This document shows positions 2,659-16,099 of a stretch of DNA of 64,000 nucleotides, one piece after another. This DNA is from Arthrobacter sp. cf158 (GTDB taxonomy: Bacteria; Actinomycetota; Actinomycetes; Actinomycetales; Micrococcaceae): assembly GCF_900106835.1 (NCBI RefSeq), contig NZ_FNNR01000008.1:1-64000 (forward strand), given 5' to 3'. A model generated the notes under the pieces. That model was not told the DNA's origin. It saw nothing but the letters and a program-made list of their open reading frames with translations, and made no database searches. The translations under genes and the position numbers were made by a program. How positions within the stretch are numbered: position 1 is the stretch's first letter; each line of letters opens with the position of its first letter.

Positions 2659-3237
2659 ATGCCCGAAATTGAGCTTCCCATCATCACCGATCGACTCATC
2701 CTGCGCCGCTTCGAGGCCGAGGACCTCGATCGCTTCCACGGCTATCAGTCCCTGCCCGAAACTGCCCGCTTCCTGTTGCGCAATGAGCTGACCAGGACCA
2801 AGTCCATGGAGGTCCTGGGCCGGTACGCGAACTTCGAGTTCAAACAAGAGGGGGACTGGGTTTGCCTGGCCATTGAACGCAAAGACCAGCCCGGCCTCAT
2901 GGGCGAGGTTGTGCTGAAGTGGCTGGAGGGCACAGGGCAAGCCGAGGTGGGCTGGATACTCCATCCTGACGCCCAGGGCCACGGCATCGCCACGGAAGCG
3001 GCGGAAGCCGTGCTGCGGCTGGCGTTCGAGACACTGTCCTTCCACCGGGTGGACGCCAAACTGGATGCCCTCAACGAAGGCTCGGCAGGGATTGCCAAGC
3101 GGCTGGGCATGCGGTTGGAGGCCACTTTGGTGGATAACTGGCACTACAAAGGGCAGTGGGCCAGCGAGTGCATCTACGCCATTCTGGACTCGGAATGGCG
3201 CACGCGGCACCACCCGTGGACGCGGACCATCAGCTGA
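2659..3237 (+). CDS. GNAT-family N-acetyltransferase, RimJ/RimL type
   Basis: A 192-residue GNAT acetyltransferase of the RimJ/RimL class. The N-terminal LPIITDRLILRRFEAEDL is the classic opening of this class. The acetyl-CoA-binding region is around HPDAQGHGIATEAAEAVL, followed by HRVDAKLDALNEGSAGIAKRLGM. The substrate (ribosomal protein, antibiotic or metabolite) cannot be told from sequence. An ATG at 2659 was chosen because the family N-terminus begins there; the frame is open further upstream. Divergent from paaI. Its stop overlaps the stop of the opposing GGDEF-EAL gene by 8 bases. Confidence 0.9.
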   Translation: MPEIELPIITDRLILRRFEAEDLDRFHGYQSLPETARFLLRNELTRTKSMEVLGRYANFEFKQEGDWVCLAIERKDQPGLMGEVVLKWLEGTGQAEVGWILHPDAQGHGIATEAAEAVLRLAFETLSFHRVDAKLDALNEGSAGIAKRLGMRLEATLVDNWHYKGQWASECIYAILDSEWRTRHHPWTRTIS

Positions 3238-4780
3238 CAGGCCACGTCTTGTGGTGCTTCAGCTGCTCCGTGAGCTGCTCTTCGGGCAGTGGCCGGCTGA
3301 AGTAGTAACCCTGTCCGCTGGTACAGCCGATGCTGAGGAGATATTCGGCCTGCTCAACGGTTTCAATGCCCTCCCATACGGCCGCCAGACCGCACGCACG
3401 GATCAGTTGCAGCACAGCAGCCAGCAGCGCGGGCTGTGACGGGTCGCTGCCCAAGGCGGAGAGCAGCGTCCGGTCCACTTTGACGGTGTCCACGGGCAGC
3501 TGGCGGAGATAGCTGATGGAGGAGTAGCCGGTGCCGAAGTCGTCAATTTCCAGTCCCACCCCCAGGCGGCGCAGGCTGTTGAGCGTGTAGCGGTCCAGGT
3601 CGTTGCCCAGAATGACCGCGCTTTCGGTCAGCTCCAGGACCAGCAGCGAGGGGTCAAGCCCGGCTGAGGCCAGGGCCTCCCGCACATCTTCGATGAATTC
3701 AAGACGCTGCAGGTCCGCGGCTGATACGTTGATGCGCATGCTGAAGTCGTGGCCCGCCGTCAGGGGGTCGGTGCGCCATTGCTTCAACTGCTCGACGGCG
3801 GTGCGGAGCACCCAGCCGCCCAGCTCTGAGATCATGCCGGTTTCCTCGGCGATGGGAATGAACTCGTCCGGCATGATCAGTCCCCGGGTGGGGTGATTCC
3901 AACGGACCAAGGCCTCCACGCCTTCAATTCCGCGGGTATCCAGCCGGATGATGGGCTGGTAGTAGAGCACCAGTTGGGATCCGGCTATTGCCTCTTTGAG
4001 CTCGCCCACCAGTTGGTTCCGCATCTGCCTCGCATGCAGCATGGCCGGCTCAAACACCTTGAGCTTGCCGCGTCCGTCAGCCTTGGACTCGTACATGGCA
4101 ATGTCCGCTTCCATCATCAGCTCCTCGGCGCGATGCCCGGGATCGGCCATCCTGAGGCCCATGCTGGCCCCGCAGCGGAGATGCTGGCCCTCAACCTCCA
4201 TGACGCTCACTACGGCAGCTAGGATGCGGTTGCCAATGGAAGCGGCCACTGCAGGGGTCACGTCGGGGATGAGCACGGCGAATTCATCCCCACCCATGCG
4301 GGCCACCATGTCCTGTTCCCTGACCGCGCCGCTGATCCGGTTGGCCACGGTCTCCAGGACTTTGTCCCCGATGGTGTGGCCCAGGGAGTCGTTGATGGCC
4401 TTGAAACCGTCCATGTCCAGCAGGAGGATGGCTGCCCGCCCGCCTGTCACTCCGCCGGCCTGGGCCTCGCTGAGGGCGGAGGCAAAAGCTGAGCGGTTGT
4501 TCAAACCCGTCAGGGGATCCGTCATTGCCATGTGCTGCATCGCCAAATGGGCTTCGTTGAGCTGTTGGGTCCGGGCCTGCACCCGTTGTTCCAACTCTTC
4601 GTAGACAATCTGGAGGTCCTCGGCCAGGAGGTTGGTCCCCATGATCACAGCATCAATTTCGTCGCGCGCGTCCGAAACTTCGATCCTGGTGTTGAGGTCG
4701 CCGGCGGCCAGCCTGACGATACCTTCCAGCAGCAAACCCAGGCGGGGATCGTTGCCGGAGTACATTTTTCCTTCGGACAT
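3230..4780 (-). CDS. HAMP-GGDEF-EAL cyclic-di-GMP enzyme
   Basis: A soluble 516-residue protein with no membrane segment. An N-terminal HAMP-like stretch (about 15-60) and a coiled coil (60-82) lead to a GGDEF domain with an intact GGDEF at about 163-167. An RxxD inhibitory site sits five residues before it. The EAL domain has its EAL motif at about 289-291 and keeps DDFGTGYSS, the Lys in VKVD, the Glu of WEGIET, and QGYYFSRP. Both domains look catalytically competent, so it could make and break c-di-GMP. The start is the ATG at 4780, with GGGGAG five bases upstream; a GTG at 4786 overlaps the TPR gene stop as GTGA. The overlap implies translational coupling to the TPR gene, the likely partner. 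Confidence 0.93.
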   Translation of the reverse strand: MSEGKMYSGNDPRLGLLLEGIVRLAAGDLNTRIEVSDARDEIDAVIMGTNLLAEDLQIVYEELEQRVQARTQQLNEAHLAMQHMAMTDPLTGLNNRSAFASALSEAQAGGVTGGRAAILLLDMDGFKAINDSLGHTIGDKVLETVANRISGAVREQDMVARMGGDEFAVLIPDVTPAVAASIGNRILAAVVSVMEVEGQHLRCGASMGLRMADPGHRAEELMMEADIAMYESKADGRGKLKVFEPAMLHARQMRNQLVGELKEAIAGSQLVLYYQPIIRLDTRGIEGVEALVRWNHPTRGLIMPDEFIPIAEETGMISELGGWVLRTAVEQLKQWRTDPLTAGHDFSMRINVSAADLQRLEFIEDVREALASAGLDPSLLVLELTESAVILGNDLDRYTLNSLRRLGVGLEIDDFGTGYSSISYLRQLPVDTVKVDRTLLSALGSDPSQPALLAAVLQLIRACGLAAVWEGIETVEQAEYLLSIGCTSGQGYYFSRPLPEEQLTEQLKHHKTWPVS

Positions 4781-4782
4781 GC

Positions 4783-5850
4783 TCACTCCCCGTGTGGCCG
4801 GCCTCGTTGTGGATCGGTATGGAGCAGATGCTGCCGGACTGCCGCGCTGCGGTCAGGCAATGCTGCTTGATCGAACAGGCTTGATGCTTCCTCGAAGGTG
4901 GCCAGTGCATCATCGCGCCTGCCGGACTCAAGCAACGTTCGGGCCAAGAGGAAATGTGCCTCCGCGGAGGTTTGCGTCGCCAAAATTGAGGATCGGGCGC
5001 AGAGCGGTTCAAGGATTCCGGTGGCTTGTTCCATATCGCCGCTGAGAAAATACCAATGTGCGCGGACCAAGGACATTTCCAGATGGTCGCGTTCTGAGCC
5101 GCCCACAATGTCCGTGGCGAGTTCGGCCCTTTCAATGCAGCGGAGGGTAGCGGCGTCGCTGAGTTTCGCCTGAAGCCGCATTTCCGCGGAAGCCCGGTTG
5201 AAACGCGCCCACAAATCAACGTCCTTTGACGGTGACAGCCGTTCGGCAGCGAGATCGTGATAACGCCCGCCGTCAGCAACCCGATCGGCAAGGAAAGCAA
5301 CGTTGCCAATCACCCAATAGCCCTTTCCGGCAGTGTCTTCATCCACGTCGTCGGTCAGGAGGGTTTCCAGCACCAAGCACTCACGCCAGGCGTCGTCCAG
5401 GAGCCGGCTTTCAGCCAAGGCCGCGATCAGTGCACGCTGGGCAAGGATCTGGACGTAGAGCAGGTCGGCGTCGCGGGCCGCCAGTTTGGCAGCGTCGGCG
5501 GCCATGGCTGCTGCCTCGGCGAGGCGGCCCAGCCCTTGGAACGCAATGGCAACCATGGTTCCTGCCTTGGCCCCCAGCTCCGGCGAAGAGGAGGTAAGGC
5601 TGTGATCGTTCAGCTCGAAGGCCAGGCTGAGGTACTCCTCGATCCGGCCCTGGTCCCGGAGGCATTCGGCCTGCAGGTACCGCATGTTCCACCATGCTTC
5701 TTCGTCCCCGGCCGCCGTGGCGAGCTGTGCGGCCTCTCCTGCCAAGCGGAAGGCTTCATCGAAGTCCCGTTCCTTCCATTTGGCGCGTGCCGTGAGACCG
5801 GCAACAAGGTGGGATGCGAGATGGGGACTTTGCATGTGCCCATTATCCAT
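4783..5850 (-). CDS. TPR-repeat protein, possible peptide receptor coupled to the GGDEF-EAL gene
   Basis: A 355-residue, alanine-rich, all-helical protein made of degenerate tetratricopeptide-like helix pairs throughout (for example AFQGLGRLAEAAAMAADAAK and FLLARTLLESGRRDDALATF). I see no helix-turn-helix, signal peptide or membrane segment, so it should be cytoplasmic and act by protein or peptide binding. It is the first gene of an operon with the GGDEF-EAL gene (4-base overlap) and is transcribed away from the IGWWPN precursor gene at 5943. That context recalls Rap/RRNPP-type TPR receptors that bind imported peptides, but sequence kinship is not shown. The start could also be the ATG at 5835; neither has a strong Shine-Dalgarno. 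Confidence 0.85.
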   Translation of the reverse strand: MDNGHMQSPHLASHLVAGLTARAKWKERDFDEAFRLAGEAAQLATAAGDEEAWWNMRYLQAECLRDQGRIEEYLSLAFELNDHSLTSSSPELGAKAGTMVAIAFQGLGRLAEAAAMAADAAKLAARDADLLYVQILAQRALIAALAESRLLDDAWRECLVLETLLTDDVDEDTAGKGYWVIGNVAFLADRVADGGRYHDLAAERLSPSKDVDLWARFNRASAEMRLQAKLSDAATLRCIERAELATDIVGGSERDHLEMSLVRAHWYFLSGDMEQATGILEPLCARSSILATQTSAEAHFLLARTLLESGRRDDALATFEEASSLFDQAALPDRSAAVRQHLLHTDPQRGRPHGE

Positions 5851-5870
5851 GTCATTGCGGAAGAAAAGCT

Positions 5871-5899
5871 CGTATAGTTTGCACCGTGACTTTATTCAA
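5871..5899 (-). promoter_or_regulatory. promoter of the TPR / GGDEF-EAL operon
   Basis: Minus strand: TTGAAT (-35) at 5899-5894, a 17-base spacer, and TATACG (-10) at 5876-5871. Spacing is ideal. The -35 box lies in the middle of the palindrome at 5886-5904, so a protein bound there should block this promoter. Confidence 0.55.
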
Positions 5900-5904
5900 G
5901 TCAC
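5886..5904. promoter_or_regulatory. perfect 7-5-7 palindrome, candidate operator
   Basis: GTGACTTTATTCAAGTCAC: the 7-bp arms GTGACTT and AAGTCAC are perfect inverted repeats around 5 bases. It lies in the 92-base region between the TPR operon and the peptide gene and covers the -35 of the TPR promoter. There is no T-run, so it is not a terminator. The binding protein is unknown. Confidence 0.6.
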
Positions 5905-5942
5905 ACTCAACAAATTCGCATCAGTACGAAAGGGCATAGCGG

Positions 5943-6113
5943 ATGAAAAAATTTGCGGCAACCCTGCTCATGGCGGCGGTTCTGGCAGTAACGGGATTCG
6001 CTGCTCCGGCTAATGCCGAGCCTTCGCAGGACAGCACGGCAATCGGTTGGTGGCCTAACAGCGTCACTTCCACAAAGACGAACACCACCAGCATCGGTTG
6101 GTGGCCGAACTAA
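5943..6113 (+). CDS. secreted peptide precursor with two IGWWPN repeats
   Basis: A 56-residue small ORF. Residues 1-25 are a textbook Sec signal peptide: MKK, then a hydrophobic core, then an APANA cleavage site. The predicted mature part (26-56) holds AIGWWPN at 33-39 and SIGWWPN at 50-56, the second forming the exact C-terminus, joined by a Ser/Thr/Asn/Lys linker. The repeats are also alike in DNA (ATCGGTTGGTGGCC then T or G, then AAC, at 6042-6059 and 6093-6110). A GAAAGGG (5928-5934) lies 8 bases before the ATG, and a strong terminator follows. Repeated short motifs with a free C-terminal copy suggest a signalling-peptide precursor. The neighbouring divergent TPR gene suits that. Other possibilities are a Trp-rich antimicrobial peptide or a ligand-binding peptide. 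Confidence 0.8.
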   Translation: MKKFAATLLMAAVLAVTGFAAPANAEPSQDSTAIGWWPNSVTSTKTNTTSIGWWPN

Positions 6114-6152
6114 ACATTGGGGGAGTGCCTCTCGAGGCCATATGACGTAAAT

Positions 6153-6188
6153 TGATGCCCTGGGCCGCTGCCCGGGGCATCAGTTTTT
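6153..6188 (+). terminator. Rho-independent terminator of the peptide gene
   Basis: TGATGCCCTGGG and CCCGGGGCATCA form a 12-bp stem (one G-U pair) around CCGCTG, followed by G and TTTTT. It lies 40 bases after the peptide stop. It isolates the peptide gene from the convergent histidine kinase and supports a short dedicated transcript. Confidence 0.85.
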
Positions 6189-6329: not shown

Positions 6330-7967
6330 CTACGGTCCGCCCACCGGCAGCTCTACGGACACCGTCGTCCCGGATCCCAACGTGGAGTCCAGCAGGAGGC
6401 GGCCCATGTGGCGGCTGATGATGTCGTGGGCTATTGCGAGTCCCAGGCCACTGCCGGGAACCGCAGCGGACGTGGCGTTGGAGGCACGGTAGAAGCGGGT
6501 GAAGATATGAGGCAGATCGTGCTCGGGGATGCCCAGGCCATTGTCCGCGACCCGCACCAGGGCCAGGCCGCCATGCTCGGAGGATGACACGGAGCTGGTG
6601 ATGCCCACGCGGCCACCCTCGGGCGTGAACTTGATGGCGTTGGCCACGATGTTGGTGAACACCTGTTCCAGTTTTGCTTCGTCAGCGGTGACTTCGATGT
6701 CCTCGGTTCCTTCGGTAACGGACACGGAGACATGGCGGGAATCTGCCAACGGGCGGAGAGTGGCCACCACCACGTGGAGGAGTTTGGCGATATCCACCGG
6801 TTTGAGGTCCAGGTTGCTGCCGTCCTGCATGGAAACGGTGAGCATGTCCTCGATGAGCTTGCGGAGGCGGGTGGAATTCCGGGCGATCACATCAAGCATT
6901 TTGCCAATGCCTTCCGGGACCGGGCCCCCGGAACCATCCTGGATCATGTCCAGGTATGCCGTGATGGACGTCAGGGGCGTCCGAAGTTCGTGGTTCACGG
7001 TTGCCAGGAAGTCGGTTTTTGCCTTGTCCAACTGCCGTAGCTGGTGCAGGACGCGCTGCTGTGCGCTGATGAGGTGGCCTTGGATGAGGCCGTGGGCCAC
7101 GTTGCCGGCCACATGCTGCATCAGAGCGATCTCCGGCCGGGTCCAGTCATGTGGCTCACGCACGGTGCTCAGGAGAATGATTCCCATGGCGGATGCGCCT
7201 TCGCCCACCGGGAGGAGCACCGTGGACACAGGATGGAGTTCGTGGGACCACGTGCGCAGTTCCCGGGCAATGATGGAATCGGGATCGTCTCTATGGTCTG
7301 TGACGGCCAGGACGTCAGCTTCGGCCCATAGCTTGTTGGCCACATCCGCGATGATGTTCTCGCTGTCGCCGAGCCGGGCAGGAAGCATCGGTAAGCCGGG
7401 GGCATTCCATTGCGCGCGGATGCTCGGGACGCGTTCGTCACGGAACGTAGCGAACCAGACGTGGTCCACACCCAGGGCCTGACCAAACCCACGGACCACG
7501 TGGTCTGCGATGAGTTGGGGCTCGTTGGTTTCCCGGACTGCGGCCGAGACGTTCCTGAGGCTTTCCCGGAGTGCTTCAATCTCGCTGCGGGAGCGTGCAC
7601 GCTCCTTGGCGCGCCCGATCAGCGTTTCAACACGGTGAACAAGCTCGCCGGGCCGCACAGGACTGAGGACGTAGTCGGCTATACGCCAGGACTCCACTTC
7701 CTTAAGGTCCACACAATCCTGTGCCTCAAGGATCAACAGCACTGGAACTCCCGGACTGCGGAGCCCATGAGCCAGGGAGCTCTCGGCCACCACCACAGAG
7801 GGGCTTTGCTCCTGGACGTGCCGGACCAAGGCCGCGTGGTCCGGAGCCGGGCGCACGGTGAAACCCGCCAAGGCGAGGGCGTCCGAGGTGGCAGCCAGAC
7901 GGTCCTTGTTTGAATCCGCCACCACGGCAGAGCGGGCATGCTGTATGGCGGCAACGGTCTCGCCCAC
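6330..7967 (-). CDS. histidine kinase with degenerate receiver and GAF domains
   Basis: A 545-residue cytoplasmic sensor kinase. Order: receiver-like domain (about 12-118), coiled-coil linker, GAF-type domain (about 150-300), HisKA with NHELRTPLTS (His at about 326), and an HATPase with NIVANAIKFTPEGG and GSGLGLAIAHDII. The receiver is unusual: the phosphoacceptor Asp position reads VVVAESS (Glu), and the usual TKP loop reads LSPVRP, so it is probably a pseudo-receiver. The start was taken at GTG 7967 because of GGAAGGGG just upstream; the frame stays open to a GTG at 8021. No response-regulator gene is adjacent. It converges on the peptide gene. Confidence 0.9.
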   Translation of the reverse strand: MGETVAAIQHARSAVVADSNKDRLAATSDALALAGFTVRPAPDHAALVRHVQEQSPSVVVAESSLAHGLRSPGVPVLLILEAQDCVDLKEVESWRIADYVLSPVRPGELVHRVETLIGRAKERARSRSEIEALRESLRNVSAAVRETNEPQLIADHVVRGFGQALGVDHVWFATFRDERVPSIRAQWNAPGLPMLPARLGDSENIIADVANKLWAEADVLAVTDHRDDPDSIIARELRTWSHELHPVSTVLLPVGEGASAMGIILLSTVREPHDWTRPEIALMQHVAGNVAHGLIQGHLISAQQRVLHQLRQLDKAKTDFLATVNHELRTPLTSITAYLDMIQDGSGGPVPEGIGKMLDVIARNSTRLRKLIEDMLTVSMQDGSNLDLKPVDIAKLLHVVVATLRPLADSRHVSVSVTEGTEDIEVTADEAKLEQVFTNIVANAIKFTPEGGRVGITSSVSSSEHGGLALVRVADNGLGIPEHDLPHIFTRFYRASNATSAAVPGSGLGLAIAHDIISRHMGRLLLDSTLGSGTTVSVELPVGGP

Positions 7968-8183
7968 TGAGCCCCTTCCGTTCCAACGTTCGTTCACGGT
8001 GTTTACGTGATGTGGCAACACCCTATCAGCGGGTTTGAGGACAAGGGTGGCCGTGCGTCAAATGGGTTGGATGAGTCGTGGCCCACACCTTTACTTTGGC
8101 CCACGGATTAGACAGCCTTGAGGGAATCAGCGACTGGGAGCCGTGTCCGCCTCCCCTGCAGTACCAAAGGCAAGAGGAGCAAC

Positions 8184-8567
8184 GTGGACCACCCAGCAGC
8201 ACCGCAGGATCATCAGCAAGTGGCGTTCCGGTTGGAACTCGAGGAATCGGGCATCCTTCGGCTGACATGGCCGCGCGGTGCGAGGATCCAGGAACCGGAC
8301 GCCCAACGGGCCATGGACCGGGTCAACGAGCTCTGTGGCGAGGACCGCCATCCGATGATTGTGGACATGGCCACCACCGACGACGTCACGCGGGGTGCAC
8401 GGTCCGTGTTCGCGAAGCCATGCCAGGCCAACAGGATCGCCCTCTGGGGATCGTCTCCGGTGGACAGGGTCATTGCCAACTTCTTCCTTGGCATCATGAA
8501 GCCTCCGTGCCCTACCAAGTTCTTTACATCTGAAACAGAGGCGTTGGAGTGGCTGGTGGAGGCGTAG
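8184..8567 (+). CDS. small STAS/SpoIIAA-like protein
   Basis: A 127-residue soluble protein. It resembles the small STAS or SpoIIAA-like proteins common in Arthrobacter: an N-terminal beta strand region (VAFRLELEESGILRLTWP), then DRHPMIVDMATTDDVTRGARSVF and ALWGSSPVDRVIANFF, and a C-terminal helix EALEWLVEA. The function is not known; such folds bind nucleotides, lipids or partner proteins. The GTG at 8184 was chosen because GAGGAG lies 4 bases before it; the frame is open to 8118. The methyltransferase gene follows after 19 bases on the same strand. Confidence 0.7.
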   Translation: MDHPAAPQDHQQVAFRLELEESGILRLTWPRGARIQEPDAQRAMDRVNELCGEDRHPMIVDMATTDDVTRGARSVFAKPCQANRIALWGSSPVDRVIANFFLGIMKPPCPTKFFTSETEALEWLVEA

Positions 8568-11693: not shown

Positions 11694-12610
11694 TCAGTCG
11701 GATCCGTGGGGGAGGGCGTTTGCCAGGGTCACCCGGTTCCGGCCTGAAGCCTTCGCGGCATACAGGGCAAGATCGGCCTCGCGCAGGAGTTGCTCAGTCC
11801 CGGCGCGGTGCCCCTCGGTGGAAGCAGAGACTCCGGCGCTGATGGTCAGAACACCGTCGGGGTCACCGGAGTGTTCGATCCTCAAGGAGTGCACAGCGGA
11901 CCGGACACGTTCCACCACCACCCCCGCAGTGGCCGCGGACTCCTCCTTGAGGACCAACAGGAATTCTTCGCCGCCAAAGCGGTACACGGCGTCCGTCCTC
12001 CGGACCTCGCGCGCCAACGTGGTTGCAATGGCCACCAACGCGGCGTCGCCGGCCTGGTGCCCGTAGATGTCGTTGTAGCTCTTGAAATTGTCCACATCCA
12101 CCATCGCCAGGCAGTAATTGTGGTCTGTGCGGTTATGCAAAGCGCCCAGGTCCTCGGTGAGCTTCAGACGGTTGTGCAGCTTGGTCAGGGGGTCCGTGCG
12201 GGCTTCCTCTGTCAGGGCAGAGCGGTAACGGGCCAGGTCCGCATGCAAGGACGTGATCCGCTGGGCAGCCAGGAGGCGGATATGCAGGTTGAAGGGATCC
12301 AATGGCTTGGTGACGTAATCGTCCGCCCCGGCCTCCATGCCTGCCAGGACATCCTTTCGCGATCCGTGGGAGGTCACCAGGATGATGTAGGTGTAACTGT
12401 CATCCTCGGCCGCCCGGATGGTGCGGCAAAGGTCCAGACCGTTGAGGCCGGGCATCATCAGGTCGGTCACTACAGCCTCGGGCTGGTGCTCAAGGTAGAG
12501 CTGCCACGCAGAGTCGCCGTCCACTGCCACGATGCATTCGTGGCCTGATTGTTCAACGGCGGCCTTGGTGATCATCCGGGAGATCTGGTCGTCGTCGGCG
12601 ATCAGGACTT

Positions 12611-12614
<4 letters not shown>
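11694..12614 (-). CDS. response regulator with GGEEF diguanylate cyclase output
   Basis: A 306-residue PleD-like protein. The receiver domain (1-120) has DDD near the start, the phosphoacceptor in VVTDLMMPGLNG and the switch Lys in VTKPLDPFN. A GGDEF domain follows with an intact GGEEF preceded by an RxxD inhibitory site (RRTD), so it should be an active, product-inhibited diguanylate cyclase. Its ATG at 12614 overlaps the stop of the hybrid kinase gene by 4 bases, so that kinase, which ends in an HPt domain, is the likely phosphodonor. Confidence 0.95.

Positions 12615-16099
<3,485 letters not shown>

Follow-up and report, generated by a model that had tools for sequence, protein, structure and literature searches.

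A candidate secreted-peptide and TPR-receptor pair beside a c-di-GMP gene in Arthrobacter, and its relatives in Actinomycetes

The window analysed here is a stretch of 64,000 nucleotides from Arthrobacter sp. cf158 (contig NZ_FNNR01000008.1, positions 1 to 64,000). Near its beginning lies a candidate peptide-signalling locus, in which the gene for a 56-residue peptide precursor is divergent from the gene for a protein made of tetratricopeptide repeats (TPR), the two start codons being 92 bp apart, and the TPR gene in turn overlaps by 4 bp (GTGA) with a gene for a GGDEF-EAL enzyme. An initial annotation had proposed that a peptide with the motif IGWWPN is exported, cut and sensed by the TPR protein, which then sets the turnover of cyclic di-GMP (c-di-GMP). 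The parts that it listed are all present, namely the small open reading frame (ORF), which has two IGWWPN motifs, one forming the exact C-terminus, behind a Sec-type signal peptide, the divergent TPR gene and its coupling to the GGDEF-EAL gene. Its description of the enzyme as an intact HAMP-GGDEF-EAL protein holds for GGDEF (E 9.3e-41) and EAL (E 2.8e-71), both of which have their signature motifs, with an RxxD site ahead of GGDEF, whereas the HAMP match is weak (E 8.7e-5; 23.2 bits against a Pfam cut-off of 25). The features of the locus are as follows, pN/pS being the ratio of non-synonymous to synonymous changes.

5943..6113 (including the stop codon), + strand: peptide precursor gene, 56 aa, with 26 homologues and a whole-gene pN/pS of 0.13
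5943..6017, + strand: Sec-type signal peptide, codons 1-25, ending in APANA (AxA-like); seen by eye, with invariant positions and a pN/pS of 0.014 in 15 sequences
6042..6059, + strand: core 1, IGWWPN, with 0 non-synonymous changes and 3 of 6 codons varying synonymously
6093..6110, + strand: core 2, IGWWPN, at the exact C-terminus, with 0 non-synonymous changes and 2 of 6 codons varying synonymously
4783..5850, - strand: TPR-only protein, 355 aa, the proposed cytoplasmic peptide receptor, assessed by Pfam, AlphaFold, tree and conserved residues
3230..4786, - strand: (HAMP-like)-GGDEF-EAL enzyme, 518 aa, the proposed output, assessed by Pfam, motifs and neighbourhood counts
5849..5878, + strand: weak sigma-70-like promoter match for the precursor, ATGTCA-18-TATAGT (1 found against 0.3 expected in shuffles)
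6149..6186, + strand: terminator-like stem of 17 pairs, 3' of the precursor (2 such sites in the region against 0.5 expected)

The precursor reads MKKFAATLLMAAVLAVTGFAAPANAEPSQDSTAIGWWPNSVTSTKTNTTSIGWWPN, with core 2 as its exact C-terminus; the signal peptide was called by visual inspection and a simple rule for hydrophobicity rather than a trained predictor. Given the stem behind it, the precursor gene may form a transcript unit of its own. A search of assembled genomes (the genome_contigs set) recovered 28 precursor loci, the closest in Paenarthrobacter and Arthrobacter, and 26 of these have a C-terminal core (GWWPN in 25, GSWPN in one); two from Corynebacterium (L034, L035) were dropped, their likeness lying in the signal peptide only, without a core. 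Among 15 two-core orthologues (L021 was excluded from this set because of its length), both cores are free of amino acid changes (pN/pS 0.000) even though synonymous variation occurs in 5 of their 12 codons, and the signal peptide is nearly as constrained (0.014), against 0.41 for the spacers. In a more distant Arthrobacter group one core is left, and the spacer is altered in both length and sequence. By these measures, the 56-aa ORF is a real gene under strong purifying selection, and within the group its repeats do not vary freely. A match to the NCBIfam family WGxxGxxG (residues 1-48; E 2.4e-4), which scores 21.6 bits where the cut-off is 35, was set aside, the protein having no WGxxGxxG motif. 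A C-terminal G(W/S)WPN pattern matched 20 times in 395 genomes; 15 of these are true precursors, and L043, L044, L053, L054 and L055 are not, on inspection.

The pairing of precursor and TPR gene extends through much of the family. A precursor profile matches in 126 of 395 family genomes (E <= 0.01), many of the matches being weak. A set of 41 loci around strong matches, which includes 40 hand-chosen from the full-length profile matches (E <= 7.4e-5; some such matches were left out), has a WP core in 41/41 and a divergent adjoining TPR homologue in 39/41. Approached from the receptor side, a TPR profile matches in 221 of the 395 genomes and 17 of 32 genera. From the TPR matches listed, 40 loci at places new to the analysis were hand-chosen, and 44 of their 46 TPR genes face a divergent signal-peptide ORF with WP near its C-terminus; the two partnerless genes sit at contig ends, so that all 44 non-edge TPR genes are paired. 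The same test was positive for 2 of 164 control genes, neither precursor-like by eye. For these two counts, which include close relatives, WP was sought in the last 25 residues (in the last 20 in another scan for cores). Many of these TPR-picked loci yield a weak match to the precursor profile, one a good match (G332) and others none. In another genus, different genes surround the pair, among them one that looks deoC-like by eye, and the TPR gene is followed by DUF7793-like and GGDEF-EAL genes.

As judged from their sequences, the precursors share one build, in which the signal peptide is conserved, the spacer drifts and at least one xWPx core is conserved. The 109 distinct precursors carry 1-6 cores each (2-6 in 48), and 69 of the 109 end exactly at WPx. 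The residues ahead of WP are mostly GN, GW, GS, GD or NN and those behind it mostly N, D, H, Y or F, giving variants such as GWWPN, GNWPY, GSWPF and IDDWPH. Core types are shown by sequence comparison to follow receptor clades, even where two precursor-TPR pairs stand in tandem (L156, L157, L159, L160, L163): there the core differs between the pairs, the first having IDDWPH or IDNWPN and the second repeated GNWPD or GNWPG. A second precursor of genome G009, at 5657-5803 of L089, carries GWWPH and has no TPR neighbour.

In the TPR protein of the window, the best TPR-type Pfam matches fall slightly under their cut-offs, and Pfam found no DNA-binding domain or helix-turn-helix (HTH). Its AlphaFold model is all-helical (mean pLDDT 89) and aligns with TPR superhelices: LGN at Z 28.1, NprR at Z 20.0 and RapI at Z 19.6 (329 residues aligned). 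Across 106 receptors of the TPR-only and HTH-TPR kinds, eight groove-type residues are each kept in no fewer than 95%; of these, W179 and N183 lie in helix A5, W214, F217, N218 and R225 in A6, and R263 and W266 in A7. In TPR proteins, the A helices line the concave side.

The link to c-di-GMP rests on gene neighbourhoods. In cases with enough sequence, a same-strand GGDEF-EAL gene lies within 4.5 kb of 79/96 TPR-only genes and of 0/5 HTH-TPR genes, a count that covers either side of the TPR gene and includes close relatives (15 Paenarthrobacter-type loci); this neighbourhood was thus seen for the HTH-less branch only. In L110, L121 and L126, the GGDEF-EAL gene lies past the precursor and not behind the TPR gene. 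The 17 TPR-only cases without it amount to 13 loci, each of which encodes a GT2 glycosyltransferase as well as a homologue of a protein that matches CBM5-12 and, under the cut-off, GH18; at three of these loci (L106, L117, L120) part of the GGDEF-EAL gene appears at the far end of the stretch. GT2 occurs in 19 loci in total, once as a 58-residue match, and was not found in the 64 kb of the window. In L157 (7862-11981) and 18 other loci, GT2 lies inside or beside the cluster that runs from the TPR gene to the GGDEF-EAL gene, and a CBM5-12/GH18-like protein accompanies it in 16/19. From the presence of GT2 in the cluster of several relatives, we infer that exopolysaccharide is a likely output in the genera concerned.

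The window genome also encodes a second TPR protein (G000:C5, L167) with an XRE-type HTH (HTH_31 E 8.6e-12 and HTH_3 E 6.2e-11, both above cut-off) and TPR-type Pfam matches above cut-off; its gene faces a precursor of its own with two IGNWPDPM cores. By its domains and gene order, this protein has the RRNPP layout. A quick tree of 116 rows has a branch that sets the 87 TPR-only receptors apart, beside the HTH-TPR proteins of the family; its SH-aLRT (approximate likelihood ratio test) value is 92, under the mark of 95. Near copies and repeats (L009-L020, L168-L180, L194, L196) were omitted, as were rows whose domains are cut, and the label of the first TPR protein of L158 is wrong, its upstream side being off the contig and a neighbour's label having been carried over. 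With the TPR-only rows together on one side, a single loss of the HTH would be the simple reading of this branch.

Beyond the family, at the level of the order (396 genomes, a set overlapping places already in other sets), further TPR-profile matches were confined to four genomes of one family: in two of them VGGSWPT repeats lie next to an HTH-TPR gene, in the third the WP is doubtful, and the fourth lacks one. At the level of the class, an HTH-TPR profile matches in 74/394 genomes, and 40/60 HTH-TPR genes outside the window's own family face a small signal-peptide ORF, ending in CC (29), WP (7) or W..P (4), against 3/128 positive controls, one of which (L237) resembles a true precursor. This rate is exploratory, as the end classes were defined after viewing the data, and excludes the repeats L263-L267, two own-family loci and one edge case. 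In one family, 14/14 peptides end in CC. Six or more families have secreted peptides of ~40 aa with CC ends (e.g., PGQYCC and GGIWCC) encoded divergently to HTH-TPR regulators, at loci including L233-L236, L238, L240, L242, L249 and L253; DWPGMCC is found in L218 and L220. No TPR-only relatives were found in the phages or plasmids searched, and two plasmids carry an HTH-TPR relative (25-29% identity), beside which a peptide scan found one hydrophobic ORF that is not precursor-like (L268) and none (L269). L268 (NZ_CP108097.1) is a Streptomyces plasmid whose HTH-TPR relative is annotated merely as a helix-turn-helix protein.

Our best reading of these observations is that the locus belongs to an RRNPP-like pheromone family in Actinomycetes, so far undescribed, of which the window would represent an HTH-less, c-di-GMP-linked branch. 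Where the initial annotation saw one circuit, the pairing is well supported and represents one offshoot of a wider family, the rest of which has an HTH. We give odds of roughly three in four to the 56-aa product being a pheromone precursor that acts through export, release, re-import, TPR binding and control of c-di-GMP by the GGDEF-EAL enzyme. Judging from the signal peptide, Sec would export the precursor, and proteases would free a short peptide containing the IGWWPN core, which an oligopeptide permease would take back in; with 17 matches to the oligopeptide-binding-protein family PF00496 in the genome, import is possible, no more. Inside the cell, the peptide would dock in the groove on the concave side of the TPR protein (W179, N183, W214, N218, R225, R263, W266). 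Since this protein lacks the HTH of its paralogues, it would act on the co-encoded GGDEF-EAL enzyme and not on DNA, joined in other genera by a DUF7793 partner, and the concentration of the peptide would thereby set c-di-GMP.

Several observations weigh against this proposal. The fold search does not single out RRNPP receptors, as LGN ranks above NprR and RapI, and a sequence search of the PDB with the TPR part yields generic TPR matches and no RRNPP receptor. The tree was made quickly, and its outgroup and a few other rows were flagged for long branches. The conserved groove does not transfer simply: of the 10 class-level receptors whose peptides end in WP or W..P, all have W179, 4 have W214, 3 each have R225 and F217 and 1 has R263, and N183, N218 and W266 are not among the commonest letters. 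In 23 receptors of CC-ending peptides, W179 is present in 23/23, R263 in 11/23 and the other conserved residues seldom or never. Hence, on these alignments, the groove marks this branch and not every receptor of a WP peptide. At the class level, 20/60 HTH-TPR genes have no recognised peptide end. Apart from that count, L188, L193 and the first TPR gene of L114 have no WP ORF, and L192 has a doubtful WP (DTWPA). Two of the 41 precursor-picked loci, L087 and L089, lack a TPR neighbour, and L023-L032, which make up 10 of the 26 homologues from the genome_contigs search and belong to one Arthrobacter group, lack an adjoining TPR-GGDEF pair. The adjacency of precursor and TPR gene, on which the initial annotation had relied, thus stands for the 44/44 and 39/41 counts and fails at these ten, where a response regulator is the neighbour. 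Maturation, import, binding and c-di-GMP output are, moreover, steps that we infer; for this reason and because of the ten homologues, we regard the initial interpretation as partly supported.

Two further genes of the window bear on the alternatives and on the output.

6330..8021, - strand: GAF-HisKA-HATPase kinase (Pfam), convergent with the precursor, a neighbour in part of the family
8118..8567, + strand: DUF7793 protein, SpoIIAA-like under the cut-off, with a homologue between the TPR and GGDEF-EAL genes in other genera

An ORF at 11694-12749 (- strand), ~6 kb from the pair, resembles by eye a response regulator fused to GGDEF, and would be a second c-di-GMP gene near the locus.

The peptide could instead be a secreted effector (antimicrobial, surface or matrix), with the divergent TPR or HTH-TPR protein merely controlling its expression and not binding it. 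Divergent regulator-target arrangements are common, the Thr-rich spacers could conceivably form a glycosylated stalk, and GT2 and a CBM5-12 protein accompany some clusters. However, such control sits poorly with a TPR protein that has no Pfam DNA-binding domain while the pair is still conserved; the cores segregate with the receptor clades, tandem pairs included, and 1-6 short cores in otherwise free sequence better fit a released peptide. We hold an effector role to be unlikely. Chance neighbourhood or a spurious ORF, which has no observation in its favour and to which we give a negligible probability, is excluded by conservation (core pN/pS 0.000) together with the control rates (44/44 versus 2/164, and 40/60 versus 3/128 in the class).

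Still less probable than an effector is two-component-style sensing of the peptide by the kinase, joined in some species by an OmpR-type regulator, the TPR protein being incidental. The kinase and precursor genes converge in 26/26 genome_contigs loci, and in L023-L032 and L087 the precursor lies between an OmpR-type response regulator, upstream of it, and the kinase, without a TPR gene. However, a tblastn search with the kinase (E <= 1e-20) gave 38 searched records (the window and some other places counted twice), all from the window's genus or near relatives except L100, L109 and L111, and the kinase was not seen at the remaining precursor-TPR loci of other genera; the TPR protein is the constant partner across loci, and the Pfam domains of the kinase are GAF, HisKA and HATPase. 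In three genomes with the lone-precursor arrangement, a TPR system with 4-6 GWWPN cores lies at another place (L132-L134), and we would guess that the lone precursor may feed the receptor there.

Returning to the pheromone proposal, its gene and domain layout suggests a circuit that works like the RRNPP systems. Rap proteins have no N-terminal HTH and act on a partner protein, either response regulators or other regulators. The TPR protein of the window resembles them in lacking a DNA-binding domain and in the alignment with RapI noted above, whereas its candidate partner is the co-encoded GGDEF-EAL enzyme. With the RRNPP(A) systems of Bacillota (PlcR-PapR, NprR-NprX, Rgg-SHP, ComR-XIP), the family shares a TPR receptor, an HTH in the paralogues and an adjoining small exported propeptide. 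Tandemly duplicated propeptides are described for some RRNPP systems in the accessible part of PMC11343458. By contrast, the hosts here are Actinomycetota, the core is WP, the receptor of the window is HTH-less and the sequence searches traced no kinship to the solved RRNPP TPR domains. A precedent for the output is RpfR, a PAS-GGDEF-EAL protein that, to our knowledge, has no TPR; its signal is a fatty acid and its hosts are Gram-negative. As the receptor of the diffusible signal factor (DSF), RpfR couples a quorum signal to c-di-GMP, according to the accessible part of PMC6361424. The quorum signalling of the window's own phylum, of the gamma-butyrolactone and LuxR types, uses small molecules, which PMC10075063, in its accessible part, calls typical of actinobacterial signals; there and in those of PMC12700828 and PMC9765709, RRNPP systems are treated in Bacillota/Firmicutes. 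For Arthrobacter, the accessible part of a review of actinobacterial quorum sensing (PMC4748050) lists AAA, LuxR_C-like and REC domains as the sole bioinformatic evidence. Among the literature matches listed, which comprise titles and the starts of abstracts, with subscription journals mostly outside, none reports peptide signalling of the TPR type in actinobacteria, and no relevant one came up for six core strings.

On a wider view, we lean to the idea that Actinomycetes own a large pheromone class, with precursors of ~40-120 aa, WP cores or CC ends and divergent HTH-TPR regulators, together with a Micrococcaceae branch that lost the HTH and was rewired to GGDEF-EAL and, in some genera, to exopolysaccharide genes. 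If true, this would place peptide quorum sensing via intracellular receptors in a second Gram-positive phylum. Being readable from sequence and synthesisable, the cores would provide a test set for the co-evolution of ligands and receptors. The locus is likewise a candidate wire from a peptide to c-di-GMP, and may offer a handle on the biofilms of soil actinobacteria.

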